From Phyllobacteriaceae bacterium (GTDB lineage Bacteria; Pseudomonadota; Alphaproteobacteria; Rhizobiales; Rhizobiaceae), in the NCBI GenBank assembly GCA_029279965.1, contig JAJUHJ010000020.1, forward strand, positions 1 through 35,960: a DNA stretch of 35,960 bases, given 5' to 3'. The notes beneath the pieces are model-generated. The model was not told the DNA's origin. It saw nothing but the letters and a program-made list of their open reading frames with translations, and searched no databases. The position numbers and the translations under genes were made by a program. Of this stretch, positions 30,219-35,545 are shown one piece after another. The number at the start of each line of letters is the position of its first letter. Position 1 is the first letter of the stretch.

Positions 30219-31097
30219 TCAATCCTTCAGGCGCTGGCCCAGACGGCCGGCAAGGTCTTGAATGAATTGCCAGGCAACCCGGCCCGAGCGGCTGCCGCGC
30301 GTGGTTGCCCATTCGAGTGCCTCGGCCTTTAACGTCTCGTTGTCGATCGGCAGATCGTGGTAGGCCGCATAGCCCTCGACCATACTGAGATATTCGTCCT
30401 GAGAGCATTTGTGGAAGCCAAGCCAGAGGCCAAAGCGGTCCGACAGGGACACCTTTTCTTCGACCGCTTCGGAAGGATTGATGGCAGTGGAACGCTCGTT
30501 CTCGATCATGTCGCGTGGCAGGAGATGCCGGCGATTCGACGTGGCGTAGAGAAGGATGTTTTCCGGCCTTCCTTCCACGCCACCTTCGAGTGCCGCCTTC
30601 AGAGATTTATAGGACGTATCGTCATGATCGAATGACAGATCATCGCAGAACAGGATGAAGCGATGTTCCGACGCTTTCAGCAAACTCATCAGCTTCGGCA
30701 GGCTCTCGATGTCTTCGCGATGTATTTCCACAAGCTTCAGTGGAGGCTGTCCCGCTTCGCGCTGCTCATTGACGTGAGCGTGGATCGCCTTGACGAGCGA
30801 CGATTTTCCCATGCCGCGCGCGCCCCATAGAAGCGCGTTGTTAGCCGGCAGTCCGGCGGCAAAGCGGCGCGTATTGTCGGCCAGGATATCGCGCACCCGG
30901 TCGACCCCCCTGATCAGGGTCAAATCGACACGGTTCACCCTTGAAACGGGCAAAAGAGTGCTGCTTTCGGCGTGCCAAACGAAACAATCGGCGCTTTCGA
31001 AATCCACTTTTGCCGGCGGAGCAGGGGCCATGCGGGCAACCACTTCTATGAGGCGGTCGAGCTTTTCACTGAGGGTGTTGAGCACATTTCCCGTCAT
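30219..31097 (-). CDS. DUF815 AAA+ ATPase
   Basis: A 292-residue predicted ATPase of the DUF815 family. A short coiled N-terminus (LSEKLDRLIEVVARM) precedes the P-loop GARGMGKS (92-99) and the Walker B-like FILFCDDLSFD (147-157), followed by LLYATSNRRHLLPRDM, ERSTAINPSEAVEEKVSLSDRFGLWLGF (sensor/arginine region) and EYLSMVEGYA. The role is unknown. The family gene often lies beside yajC in this order of bacteria. GGAG is about 10 nt before the ATG. It is divergent from yajC across 209 bp that contain a palindrome and a promoter. Confidence 0.9.
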   Translation of the reverse strand: MTGNVLNTLSEKLDRLIEVVARMAPAPPAKVDFESADCFVWHAESSTLLPVSRVNRVDLTLIRGVDRVRDILADNTRRFAAGLPANNALLWGARGMGKSSLVKAIHAHVNEQREAGQPPLKLVEIHREDIESLPKLMSLLKASEHRFILFCDDLSFDHDDTSYKSLKAALEGGVEGRPENILLYATSNRRHLLPRDMIENERSTAINPSEAVEEKVSLSDRFGLWLGFHKCSQDEYLSMVEGYAAYHDLPIDNETLKAEALEWATTRGSRSGRVAWQFIQDLAGRLGQRLKD

Positions 31098-31306: not shown

Positions 31307-31639
31307 ATGTTTGTGACACCGGCATATGCCCAGGCAGGCGGCGCACCGGACATCTTTGTCAGCATTCTGCCCTTCGTTCTGATCTTCGTGATCATGTACT
31401 TCCTGATCATCAGGCCGCAGCGCCAGCAGATGAAGAAGAGAACGGAAATGCTTGCCGCTGTGCGCCGTGGCGATACGGTAGTGACCGGCGGCGGGCTTGT
31501 CGGTAAGGTGACGAAAGTCATCGACGACAACGAGCTGGAGATCGACCTTGGCGGTGGAACCAAGGTGACGGCCATGCGCGCAATGCTCGCCGACGTCCGG
31601 GTCAAGGGCGAGCCGGCTGCCGAGAAGTCCAGCAAATAG
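31307..31639 (+). CDS. yajC: preprotein translocase subunit YajC
   Basis: YajC is a small single-span membrane subunit that forms a complex with SecD-SecF and assists SecYEG-driven export. The 110-residue protein has a short N-terminus MFVTPAYAQAGGAP, one transmembrane helix ILPFVLIFVIMYFLIIRPQ (residues ~20-38) with the family's RPQRQQMKKR at its cytoplasmic end, and the GDTVVTGGGLVGKVTKV domain. GGGAG lies 6 nt before the ATG. It starts the four-gene run that contains secDF. Confidence 0.96.
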   Translation: MFVTPAYAQAGGAPDIFVSILPFVLIFVIMYFLIIRPQRQQMKKRTEMLAAVRRGDTVVTGGGLVGKVTKVIDDNELEIDLGGGTKVTAMRAMLADVRVKGEPAAEKSSK

Positions 31640-31690
31640 TCCGCTTCGCGGAGGAAGGGCCGGGATCGGCCTGAAAGAATAAGAGAGACC

Positions 31691-34249
31691 ATGCTACATT
31701 TCTCGCGCTTGCAGACGATCCTCATCTGGCTTGTTGTGGCGTTGGGCGTCGCCTACAGCTTGCCGAACGTCCTTCCGCAATCCTATTTCTCTTCGCTGCC
31801 GTCATGGGCGCCCTCGCGCCCGATGACCCTCGGGCTCGACCTGCGGGGTGGCTCGCACATTCTCCTGCAGATCGACCGGCAGGAGCTTATCGACGAGCGG
31901 CTGGTGAGCGCCCGCGACGATGTACGCCGTCTCCTGCGCGACGAGCGCGTTGGTTATACGGGTCTTTCGACGTCTGACCGTTCCGTGCAGGTGCGTATTC
32001 GTGATGCCGGTGAGGTTGAAACGGCAAGAGAGGTCCTTCAGGAACTTACACAACCGGTAAACTCTGGCGTTTTCGGCGCGGGCACGGTTCGTGAATTCGA
32101 GTTTTCGGAGCCGGAGCCCGGCTTGTTGCGCCTGACGCTGACGGAGGGTGGAATTAACTACCGCCTTTCCACGGCCTTGTCGCAATCGATTGAGGTCGTC
32201 AGCCGGCGTGTCAACGAATTGGGCACGACTGAACCGGTCATTCAACGGCAAGGCGACGACCGCATTCTGGTTCAGGTGCCGGGACTGGACGATCCCGAGC
32301 GACTGAAGGAAATTCTCGGTACGACCGCGCGGCTGACCTTCCAGATGGTCGACCAGTCCATGCCGGTACAGGAGGCGATCGAAGGCCGCCCGCCAATCGG
32401 CACCTCGATCATGTACTCCACCGACAATCCGCCGGTTCCCTATCTCATCGAGGACCGGGTGATCGTCTCCGGCGAGAATTTGGTGGATGCGCAGACCAGC
32501 TTTGACCAACTGACAAACGAGCCGGTCGTCACCTTCCGCTTCGACACGCGGGGGGCGAGCCGTTTCGGTCAGGCAACGCAAGAGAATGTCGGACGGCTCT
32601 TCGCCATTATTCTTGACGATGAAGTGATCTCCGCACCGCAAATCCGCGAGCCTATTCTCGGCGGCACCGGCCAGATTTCCGGCAGCTTTACCGTTCAGAG
32701 CGCCAACGACCTGGCGGTTCTGCTGCGCGCCGGCGCACTGCCGGCAACGCTGACGATCGTGGAGGAACGTACAGTCGGGCCCGGCCTTGGCGCCGATTCG
32801 ATCGAGGCAGGCAAGATTGCCTCGGTGATTGGCGCAGTGCTCGTCGTTCTCTTTATGGTTGCGGTTTACGGCCTGCTGGGCGTCTTCGCTGTTGTGGCCC
32901 TTGCGGCCAATGTGTGTATGATCATCGCCGTTCTTTCCGGCCTCGGGGCCACCCTTACCTTGCCTGGGATCGCCGGTATCGTGCTGACCATCGGTATGGC
33001 GGTCGATTCCAACGTGCTTGTCTTTGAGCGTATACGCGAGGAGAGAGCGGGCGGGCGATCGCTCATCCAGGCCGTTGATGGCGGTTTCTCCAAGGCGCTT
33101 AGCACGATCGTGGACGCGAATGTCACGACGCTGATTGCCGCCGTCATACTGTTCTATATCGGCACCGGTCCTGTCCGAGGCTTTGCGGTGACGCTTGCCA
33201 TCGGCATCATCACCACCGTCTTCTCGGCCTATACATTGACGCGCTGGATAGTGGCCGAGTGGGTACGCCGCCGGCGGCCCAAGGAGCTGCCGCGCATGCC
33301 ATTGCAGGTGGTGCCGGAGCAGACCGATTTCCGCTTCATGTGGCTGCGCCGGTTCACCTTCCCGCTGACGGCATTGGCTTCGATCGCGGCGGTCGTGCTG
33401 TTCATGACAATCGATATGAATTATGGCATCGACTTCAAGGGCGGTTCCTCGATTGAAGTACGTGCACAGGACGAGAGCGCCGATATAGTGGATATTCGCA
33501 GCCGTCTCTCCACACTCGGCCTGGGCGAGGTGCAGGTGCAGGAGTTCGGCGATCCACGGGACGTTCTCATCCGCCTGCAGGCGCAGGGAGGGGGCGATGC
33601 CGCCGAGCAGCGTGCAATCGATGAGGTGCAAGCTGCGCTCGGAAGTGATTATGATTTTCGACGCATTGAGGTGGTGGGACCCACAGTCTCCAGCGAACTG
33701 GCACGTGCGGGCACCCTCGCGGTGGTCGTTTCTCTCGCAGCGATCCTGATCTACATCTGGCTGCGTTTCGAATGGCAGTTTGCCATCGGCGCCATCGTGG
33801 CGACACTGCACGATGTTCTGATGACGATGGGCTTCTTCGTTGTCACGGGCGTCGAGTTCAACTTGACCAGCATCGCCGCCATCCTGACCATTGTCGGCTA
33901 CTCCCTCAACGATACCGTCGTGGTGTATGACCGTGTGCGCGAGAATCTGCGTCGCTACAAGAAAATGCCGTTGCCTCAACTTCTCGACCTGTCCGTGAAC
34001 CAGACGCTGTCACGTACCGTGATGACCTCCCTGACGACACTGATAGCTCTGGTTTCGCTGTATGCCTTCGGCGGTGAGGTTATTCGCTCCTTTACTGCGG
34101 CGATGATTTTCGGTGTCGTTATCGGCACCTTCTCATCGATTTTCGTCGCAGGGCCGCTTCTCGTGCTGTTCCGGCTGCGGCGGCCCGTCGCCGAAACAGC
34201 CAATGAGGAAGAGAAAGAGGGCACCGCCGGCCAGGTGCCGGCAAGATAA
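31691..34249 (+). CDS. secDF: fused SecD-SecF protein translocase subunit
   Basis: SecDF uses the proton gradient to pull exported proteins and release YidC/SecYEG intermediates. At 852 residues it is the natural SecD-SecF fusion. TM1 is at ~8-24, then LGLDLRGGSHILLQID (SecD D1, ~38-53), a large periplasmic domain, and the SecD core helices with IGMAVDSNVLVFERIREE (~434-451). The SecF half begins near 545 (FRFMWLRRFTFPL), with YGIDFKGGSSIEVR (~577) and YSLNDTVVVYDRVRENL (~734-750). Conserved Asp residues for proton transfer lie in these helix motifs. The stop overlaps the next ATG (TAATG). It lies 51 bp after yajC. Confidence 0.97.
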   Translation: MLHFSRLQTILIWLVVALGVAYSLPNVLPQSYFSSLPSWAPSRPMTLGLDLRGGSHILLQIDRQELIDERLVSARDDVRRLLRDERVGYTGLSTSDRSVQVRIRDAGEVETAREVLQELTQPVNSGVFGAGTVREFEFSEPEPGLLRLTLTEGGINYRLSTALSQSIEVVSRRVNELGTTEPVIQRQGDDRILVQVPGLDDPERLKEILGTTARLTFQMVDQSMPVQEAIEGRPPIGTSIMYSTDNPPVPYLIEDRVIVSGENLVDAQTSFDQLTNEPVVTFRFDTRGASRFGQATQENVGRLFAIILDDEVISAPQIREPILGGTGQISGSFTVQSANDLAVLLRAGALPATLTIVEERTVGPGLGADSIEAGKIASVIGAVLVVLFMVAVYGLLGVFAVVALAANVCMIIAVLSGLGATLTLPGIAGIVLTIGMAVDSNVLVFERIREERAGGRSLIQAVDGGFSKALSTIVDANVTTLIAAVILFYIGTGPVRGFAVTLAIGIITTVFSAYTLTRWIVAEWVRRRRPKELPRMPLQVVPEQTDFRFMWLRRFTFPLTALASIAAVVLFMTIDMNYGIDFKGGSSIEVRAQDESADIVDIRSRLSTLGLGEVQVQEFGDPRDVLIRLQAQGGGDAAEQRAIDEVQAALGSDYDFRRIEVVGPTVSSELARAGTLAVVVSLAAILIYIWLRFEWQFAIGAIVATLHDVLMTMGFFVVTGVEFNLTSIAAILTIVGYSLNDTVVVYDRVRENLRRYKKMPLPQLLDLSVNQTLSRTVMTSLTTLIALVSLYAFGGEVIRSFTAAMIFGVVIGTFSSIFVAGPLLVLFRLRRPVAETANEEEKEGTAGQVPAR

Positions 34250-34641
34250 TGCCTGGGAGAGGGATAGAAATTCGCGACGCCCATTTTCCGGGGCGCGCCC
34301 CCATCGAAGCCTATGGCAATGGCGGGTTTCGCTTCGCGGAAATGTCGCATCGCGGCTCGCTTCTGTGCCTCCCCTCCGGCATTTACGGCTGGGAGGCGCA
34401 GAGTTCGGAGGCGTTGCAGAATGCCGATTTCGCCCGCACGATTGCGGAGGCCGGTGAGATTGAACTCTTGCTCGTGGGAACCGGAACCATGCTGAGGCCA
34501 TTGCCGGCGGAACTGCGTGAAACGTTGCGAGGGGCTGGAATGGCCGTCGAGACGATGTCCACCGGAGCCGCCGTACGCACGTTCAACGTGCTTCTGGCAG
34601 AGGATCGGGCGGTGGCCGCGGCGCTGATCGCCGTCGAATAG
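34249..34641 (+). CDS. Mth938-like (DUF498) protein, NDUFAF3-family
   Basis: A 130-residue single-domain protein of the Mth938/AAMDC family, to which human NDUFAF3, an assembly factor of respiratory complex I, belongs. Visible features are PIEAYGNGGFRF (18-29), the LLVGTGTMLRPLP turn (74-86) and GMAVETMSTGAAVRTFNVLLAEDRAVAAALI (96-126), which match the family core. The ATG shares a base with the secDF stop, so it is coupled to it. The gene after it resembles another complex I assembly factor. A role in complex I or membrane-protein insertion is inferred from family and position. Confidence 0.88.
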   Translation: MPGRGIEIRDAHFPGRAPIEAYGNGGFRFAEMSHRGSLLCLPSGIYGWEAQSSEALQNADFARTIAEAGEIELLLVGTGTMLRPLPAELRETLRGAGMAVETMSTGAAVRTFNVLLAEDRAVAAALIAVE

Positions 34642-34642
34642 G

Positions 34643-35479
34643 ATGACACCTGCGCAAGCCGAGGTGTTCTCAATCGTCCGCCTGGCCGACTCCGACCGTT
34701 ATCTCGCAACGCTCTATGCGCCGTCAGAAAGGCGTGGCGCGCTGTTCGCGCTTTATGCTTTCAACGCGGAGATCGCAGCCGTCCGCGATCGCATCCATGA
34801 ACCGCTACCCGGCGAAATCCGCCTGCAATGGTGGCGGGACGCGTTGGATGATCCCACCGCCGCCGCCGGGCATCCCGTTGCTGCCGAACTGCTTGAGGCA
34901 ATCCGGGCATATCATTTGCCCGTCGAGACTTTCGGGAACATGATCGAGGCGCGGATATTCGATCTCTATGACGATCCGATGCCCAGCCGTACGGATCTGG
35001 AAGGCTATTGCGGCGAGACCGCCGGTGCACTGATCCAGCTTTGCGCGCTGGTGCTTGACGCGGATGCCGCCATCGCTTCTGCCGCCGCTGCCGGTCACGC
35101 GGGATGCGCGCAGGCAATTGTCGGACTTTTGCGCATGCTGCCCATCCATCGCCGCCGTGGCCAATGCTATATTCCGGTCGATATTCTGCAGGCTGTTGGC
35201 ACGAGCCGTGACGCCTTTGTTTTGGGGGAAGACCGGGCCAGCGCTGCGCGGGCCGTTGCGGCTATGGCTGCGCTCGCAAGAGAACACCTGACGGCTTTTC
35301 AGCAAGCGGCGGGCGCGCTTCCCGCTTCCATTCGTCCGGCCTATCTGCCACTCGCGCTTACCGGTGCCTATCTCGACCGCATCCAGTCGGGCCGCTTCGA
35401 TCCGCTGGAAGAAAGCGGAGCCATTTCGCCCTGGCGCAAGCATTGGCTCCTGCTCAGGCGCGCCCGAAGCGGCTGGTGA
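34643..35479 (+). CDS. squalene/phytoene-synthase-fold protein, NDUFAF6-like
   Basis: A 278-residue protein with the trans-isoprenyl diphosphate synthase fold. It is often annotated as phytoene synthase, but the Asp-rich substrate motifs are missing: the first reads LYAFNAEIAAVRDRI (37-51) without a D-x-x-x-D. The HAGCAQAIVGLLRMLPIHRRRGQCYIPVDIL-type segment (about 152-182) closely parallels the mitochondrial complex I assembly factor NDUFAF6. EIRLQWWRDAL (58-68) is also shared. An isoprenoid-synthase activity is thus unlikely, and a complex I assembly role more so. It starts 1 bp after the Mth938-like gene and is followed by a terminator. Confidence 0.88.
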   Translation: MTPAQAEVFSIVRLADSDRYLATLYAPSERRGALFALYAFNAEIAAVRDRIHEPLPGEIRLQWWRDALDDPTAAAGHPVAAELLEAIRAYHLPVETFGNMIEARIFDLYDDPMPSRTDLEGYCGETAGALIQLCALVLDADAAIASAAAAGHAGCAQAIVGLLRMLPIHRRRGQCYIPVDILQAVGTSRDAFVLGEDRASAARAVAAMAALAREHLTAFQQAAGALPASIRPAYLPLALTGAYLDRIQSGRFDPLEESGAISPWRKHWLLLRRARSGW

Positions 35480-35514: not shown

Positions 35515-35545
35515 CGCCTTTTTGCTCACGGGAGGCGTTTTCTTT
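35515..35545 (+). terminator. terminator of the yajC-secDF operon
   Basis: CGCCT (35515-35519) pairs with AGGCG (35533-35537), followed by TTTTCTTT. It lies 35 bp after the last operon gene and before the next start codon. The stem is short and the loop long, so its strength is moderate. Confidence 0.48.

Follow-up and report, generated by a model that had tools for sequence, protein, structure and literature searches.

Four adjacent genes at the secDF locus

We analyzed a 35,960-nucleotide stretch of DNA from a Phyllobacteriaceae bacterium, here called the window, in which four forward-strand genes follow each other between positions 31307 and 35479. The first is yajC, encoding an accessory subunit of the Sec translocase (31307..31639; PF02699, E = 5.1e-27; TIGR00739, 85.8 bits over a cut-off of 44.2), and the second is secDF, encoding a fused SecD-SecF protein (31691..34249; NF011315, 1372.9 bits over a cut-off of 1249, with PF02355, PF22599, PF21760, and PF07549). 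Next come a DUF498/Mth938 gene of the family to which NDUFAF3 belongs (34249..34641; PF04430, E = 8.5e-32) and an NDUFAF6-like gene of the SQS_PSY family whose product lacks Asp-rich motifs (34643..35479; PF00494, E = 1.3e-61). The open reading frame (ORF) coordinates confirmed the four genes and the gaps of 51, −1, and 1 bp between them that had been given in an initial annotation of this DNA, and its family assignments (YajC, SecDF, DUF498/Mth938, and SQS_PSY) held at the level of Pfam. The source genome (3.26 Mb in 206 contigs) has one SQS_PSY gene that we could find, the one at 34643 to 35479, and one nuoD gene, which lies on another contig.

In humans, mutated NDUFAF3 and NDUFAF6 cause disease, and how their products act at the molecular level has yet to be settled. 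The two bacterial proteins resemble these products at the level of the protein family. The DUF498 protein of the window matched PF04430 over positions 1 to 109 of 109 with 109.8 bits (gathering score, 33), and its relatives of solved structure include 2fi9 (E = 3e-46) and 2fvt (E = 7e-33). It shares the full domain with the Mth938/DUF498 proteins in the Protein Data Bank (PDB; 2fi9, 2fvt, 2gm2, 3cpk, 2k2e, and 2ab1), but those entries bear names such as hypothetical, uncharacterized, or outer membrane protein. Among the PDB matches no chain was named NDUFAF3, and the only human-type gene product named was C11orf67 (2ab1).

A squalene synthase-like protein without catalytic motifs

The SQS_PSY protein of the window scored 209.1 bits against PF00494 (gathering score, 26) and fell below the equivalog cut-offs for HpnD (125.5 against 278.6 bits), HpnC (50 against 250.45 bits), and CrtB (41.7 against 550 and 22.3 against 500 bits in two models). 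At the aligned positions of the two DxxxD motifs it has AAVRD and MLPIH, so the initial annotation was right that the Asp-rich motifs are missing. Orthologues of NDUFAF6 are described as lacking the DxxxD motifs in an excerpt of PMC8007014, and the human and Arabidopsis proteins carry AxxxD and AxxxH/SxxxH at these places according to an excerpt of PMC12470011. AAVRD fits the AxxxD of the human and Arabidopsis proteins; MLPIH, being MxxxH, agrees with the second motif only in its His. The protein resembles NDUFAF6 in its family, in the absence of both DxxxD motifs, and in its first motif, but differs in its second motif and in being bacterial.

The loss is not peculiar to the window. Among 168 SQS_PSY sequences from the fetched loci, both Asp-rich motifs were absent from 107, both were present in 58, and 3 were mixed. 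The sequences without motifs were mainly the copies near DUF498, with a few divergent outliers, and the others were HpnC-, HpnD-, or CrtB-like. When aligned columns were compared, 57 paralogues had DxxxD at both motifs; of the remaining 111 sequences, 71 had AxxxE or AxxxD at the first motif, 61 had AxxxH or SxxxH at the second, and 47 had both patterns.

An AlphaFold2 model built from an alignment of 35 sequences predicted a squalene synthase fold with a pLDDT of 96.1, and it superimposed on the CrtM-like structure 8is8 with a TM score of 0.84 at 19% identity. The fold and the Pfam family are those of the HpnC-, HpnD-, and CrtB-type synthases, but both DxxxD motifs are intact in the paralogues of these types at the fetched loci. 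Because the Asp-rich motifs have been lost, the label of phytoene synthase would be wrong for the NDUFAF6-like protein, as had been suspected. A phytoene/squalene synthase label misleads in the source genome, where the one SQS_PSY gene found encodes a protein without the catalytic motifs.

Conservation of the neighborhood

We surveyed gene order in two samples. The class sample comprised 142 genomes of Alphaproteobacteria, almost one per family, and gave 76 loci in 75 genomes, namely, the window and 75 of the 76 other places with DUF498 (a fragment in genome G079 was left out). The second sample, the named loci, comprised the best 80 of 560 loci confirmed in a scan of the collection. A same-strand SecDF gene lay upstream of DUF498 within 250 bp in 68 and within 1.5 kb in 73 of the 76 class loci, and the corresponding counts were 73 and 80 of the 80 named loci; yajC was also upstream of DUF498 in 73 of the 76 class loci. 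Since random placement would put SecDF beside DUF498 about 4e-5 times per genome by our own arithmetic, the adjacency seen in 68 of 76 loci far exceeds what chance would give. The survey of Alphaproteobacteria that the initial annotation had called for thus found the context to be conserved.

The three class loci without SecDF were those of G039 and G099, where yajC adjoins DUF498 and secDF lies elsewhere, and that of a second DUF498 copy in G016. This second copy (L129, contig C98) is weaker, at 70 bits, has no SecDF in the fetched stretch, and is present in addition to the usual copy of that genome.

The NDUFAF6-like position is less fixed. The distance from DUF498 to a same-strand SQS_PSY gene downstream was at most 250 bp in 7 of the 76 class loci and 37 of the 80 named loci and at most 1.1 kb in 30 and 48, and such a gene occurred anywhere in the fetched stretch in 54 and 58, respectively. 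Among the 54 class loci with such a gene downstream, 47 have a gap of more than 250 bp. In two loci the gene lying between DUF498 and its NDUFAF6-like neighbor was identified by family search and is antisense; in L071 it encodes a Urate_ox_N-like membrane protein and in L092 an Fe/Mn superoxide dismutase. The proposal that the genes form one operon is accordingly not supported as a general rule. In five loci fetched on purpose (from G003, G102, G059, G121, and G091), DUF498 was not found and an SQS_PSY gene came after secF. The tight four-gene run is a minority variant of a looser conserved neighborhood that includes a divergent DUF815 gene. In the window this gene encodes a DUF815 ATPase, lies outside the run on the reverse strand (30219..31097; PF05673, E = 1.2e-107), and has divergent counterparts preceding yajC at 56 of the 76 class loci and 50 of the 80 named ones.

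Two side observations were made at these loci. By eye, L087 contains a close relative of the Urate_ox_N-like membrane protein of L071, and in L079 (6400-7563, reverse strand; G107) a second, degenerate SQS_PSY protein is encoded between DUF498 and the NDUFAF6-like gene; by pattern, only the latter of its two Asp motifs survives.

The cluster itself appears to have been known. The 2009 report of Saada et al. (Am J Hum Genet 84:718) is said to have linked NDUFAF3 to a bacterial membrane insertion cluster, SecF/SecD/YajC, and to C8ORF38 (NDUFAF6), which matches our observation and most of the idea drawn from it. Beyond it, we provide counts over the 142 class genomes and the 80 named loci and a comparison of nuo types within one family. 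In the literature that we searched (NDUFAF3 with SecF and YajC, or with SecD), which did not extend to the report of Saada et al., the SecDF-NDUFAF3 gene order was not found stated. NDUFAF3, C8orf38, and C2orf56 coevolve tightly according to an excerpt of a 2012 paper (PMC3436739).

Association with the type of complex I

Across the 142 class genomes, DUF498 was present in 75, SecD/F in 141, SQS_PSY in 102, and nuoD in 121. Among complete genomes (completeness of 90% or more, contamination of 5% or less), DUF498 was found in 63 of 104 with nuoD and in 0 of 12 without it (Fisher p = 3.9e-5). Those 12 genomes are all 0.8 to 1.8 Mb in size, so the absence of DUF498 from them is confounded with genome reduction and says little. 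None of the same 12 small genomes combined both genes with a lack of complex I, the case that the initial annotation had named as damaging. An NDUFAF6-like profile (A2), with at most 17 candidates scored per genome and with divergent copies falling below 150 bits, gave at least 150 bits in 67 of the 142 genomes, 63 of which have nuoD; the other four (G011, G032, G064, and G127) are 68 to 84% complete. We rejected the complex I losses of the class sample as too weak a test, given the size of the 12 genomes. A search of 389 genomes of the class found 38 without a nuoD match, and among the 20 of these that were listed, one exceeded 1.8 Mb, G226, which led to a family designated f28.

Family f28, which is probably the Acetobacteraceae, was represented by 160 genomes, and we believe the comparison made in it to be new, no dedicated literature search having been made for it. 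We classed the genomes by their nuoD match as having a separate-type nuoD (E below 1e-117; 129 genomes), only a NuoCD-like match (E from 1e-117 to 1e-100; 14 genomes), or no full match (none below 1e-100; 17 genomes). An NDUFAF6-like gene was present in 124 of the 129, in 1 of the 14, and in 5 of the 17. NuoC and NuoD were fused in all nine NuoCD-like ORFs tested (of 14) and were not fused in one separate-type control. Against the NuoD of the source genome, the two types scored 564 to 668 and 326 to 347 bits in 19 fetched nuo loci and four search loci, the remaining f28 genomes being assigned to a type by score alone. The genomes sampled at L400 to L409 have only the NuoC-NuoD fusion type of complex I, which has apparently replaced the separate type, and other members of the family have nuoD matches of both score classes.

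Of the 31 f28 genomes without a separate-type nuoD, 25 thus also lacked an NDUFAF6-like gene. When all candidates in these 25 were scored, every SQS_PSY copy was of the HpnC or HpnD type, apart from one CrtB-like copy in G444. Conversely, weak scores in 18 of the 129 separate-type genomes were at first candidates for absence. That interpretation was rejected; the earlier profile search had scored only 15 candidates for most of these genomes, and a Pfam search in which every candidate was scored revealed a further, divergent copy in 13 of them. These 13 copies were fetched (11 plus those of G343 and G439); each matched the NDUFAF6-like model, and none matched HpnC or HpnD. Where genomes of the family had been counted as positive by score, 30 of 30 scored loci were likewise NDUFAF6-like.

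Five genomes (G429, G442, G451, G499, and G550) had an NDUFAF6-like gene and a weak nuoD match. They are assembled in 160 to 550 contigs, three of them have a same-genus genome with a strong nuoD match, and the weak matches are likely assembly gaps; all five were kept in the counts.

We estimated a tree of HpnD and HpnC proteins by a quick method for 68 of the 160 genomes plus six outgroup rows. Of the 69 regions fetched, that of G554 was dropped (its only copy is not HpnD), and the HpnC proteins of G450, G461, G470, and G495 were not included; G459 fell on a long branch inside the outgroup. Twelve nuoD-less genomes formed one supported group beside ten NuoCD-like genomes, and G454/G525 and G444 were further cases.

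DUF498 behaved differently, exceeding the cut-off in 2 of the 160 genomes, and a strong nuoD match was present in 143. DUF498 is therefore dispensable for keeping nuoD. In the two genomes that have it (G462 and G509), DUF498 immediately follows yajC, without an intervening secDF. A short DUF498 match below the cut-off in L225 (G498) contains one internal stop codon and is perhaps a decayed copy.

Proposed role in complex I assembly

The explanation that we favor, with somewhat better than even confidence in it as a whole, is that the locus is a membrane biogenesis neighborhood that includes nonenzymatic helpers of complex I. YajC and SecDF would drive export and insertion in general, and the products of DUF498 and the NDUFAF6-like gene would most likely be nonenzymatic helpers in building the complex I with separate NuoC and NuoD, the mitochondrial type. 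Having lost the Mg-binding aspartates of the squalene synthase fold, the NDUFAF6-like protein may act as a membrane-facing chaperone at the junction of NuoH and the Q module, by analogy with the role of NDUFAF6 in relation to ND1; mammalian NDUFAF3, NDUFAF4, and NDUFAF6 are said to maintain ND1 synthesis in an excerpt of PMC6056720. DUF498 likely joins the same assembly step, although it is dispensable. The run shared with secDF would probably reflect joint expression of membrane assembly genes; SecDF and the two factors need not form a complex. The two mitochondrial assembly factors would then probably descend from the secDF neighborhood of an alphaproteobacterium, in keeping with the ancestral context that had been proposed.

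A narrower claim, which we hold at about even odds, is that the NDUFAF6-like protein is a dedicated assembly factor of the mitochondrial-type complex I, in which NuoC and NuoD are separate, and that it disappears once this complex is lost or a NuoCD fusion type takes its place, with DUF498 as an optional partner. In f28 the NDUFAF6-like genes follow the separate-type nuoD, a pattern that is suggestive; it comprises few independent events and is not significant.

Several results weigh against these proposals. Five f28 genomes (G452, G482, G579, G493, and G554) have a separate-type nuoD and no NDUFAF6-like gene that we could detect; additional copies in G482 and G452, and the single copy of G554, resemble CrtB and by pattern contain one Asp motif or more. 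The co-losses in the family amount to about three events, two of them on well-supported branches. We ran a pair test with and without four ambiguous genomes (G429, G442, G550, and G448). With these left out, there were two independent pairs on well-supported branches, and on average the traits agreed in 1.9 of them (p = 0.5); with them kept, there were five pairs, of which on average 1.4 agreed, 0.1 disagreed, and 3.5 showed no difference. The same tree requires 6 changes in the NDUFAF6-like state and 3 in the nuo type (7 when the ambiguous genomes are included), so when the ambiguous genomes are left out, some losses of the NDUFAF6-like gene are unmatched by a change of nuo type. In f28, 141 genomes with a strong nuoD match have no DUF498, as is also the case for 41 of the 104 complete class genomes with nuoD, and the nuoD-less class genomes are, as noted, uniformly reduced. 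Finally, DUF815 and, at sampled loci, the superoxide dismutase and Urate_ox_N-type genes share the neighborhood, and we know of no role in complex I for any of them.

Bacteria that carry these relatives beside secDF, together with sisters that lack both the NDUFAF6-like gene and one type of complex I, would make the ancestral role testable by simple genetics. If the NDUFAF6-like protein is indeed a dedicated factor, Acetobacteraceae-like bacteria would be natural knockouts for studying what a gene implicated in human disease did originally.

Alternative explanations

The gene order might instead be inertial, the locus being a slowly reshuffled housekeeping block in which neither DUF498 nor the NDUFAF6-like gene has anything to do with complex I or SecDF. 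The unrelated-looking divergent DUF815 gene and the antisense genes that separate the two factors in L071 and L092 agree with this. Against it stand the absence of the NDUFAF6-like gene from 25 of 31 f28 genomes without a separate-type nuoD versus 5 of 129 with it and the motif pattern held in common with eukaryotic NDUFAF6, and we regard it as unlikely.

The initial annotation went further and suggested that the two factors tie the insertion of the membrane subunits of complex I directly to SecDF-YajC, the run encoding this coupling. The tight order in the window, the NDUFAF6-like gene within 250 bp of DUF498 in nearly half of the named loci, and the nearness of SecDF to DUF498 in both samples speak for such coupling. 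However, yajC and DUF498 are paired without secDF between them in G039, G099, G462, and G509, and SecD/F is near universal, occurring also in genomes without nuoD. Moreover, Andalucia godoyi, for which an excerpt of PMC7050145 lists NDUFAF3 and NDUFAF6 and reports no SecY, SecE, or SecG, keeps both factors without SecYEG. Direct coupling seems to us distinctly improbable.

Least probable of all, and very doubtful, is a role in isoprenoid or hopanoid metabolism alongside hpnC and hpnD, in which the NDUFAF6-like protein would still bind or convert a prenyl diphosphate. The fold and Pfam family of the protein and the divergent HpnC/HpnD-type genes adjoining its gene in several loci (e.g., L064, L080, L082, L086, L088, and L106) might suggest this, but both Mg-binding motifs are gone, mainly from the copies around DUF498, and the 25 f28 genomes that lack an NDUFAF6-like gene along with the separate-type nuoD all keep HpnC- and HpnD-type genes.

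Minor features

A terminator-like hairpin lies 3′ of the last gene of the run (35515..35537, forward strand; a consensus match only). Since the region has nine terminator-like sites and shuffled sequences have a mean of 5.4, this match carries little weight. In f28, L336 (G454) and L342 (G525) have HpnC-like and HpnD-like domains in one frame of about 580 amino acids, a possible HpnC-HpnD fusion, and joint HpnC/HpnD frames were also seen in G428, G489, and G459.

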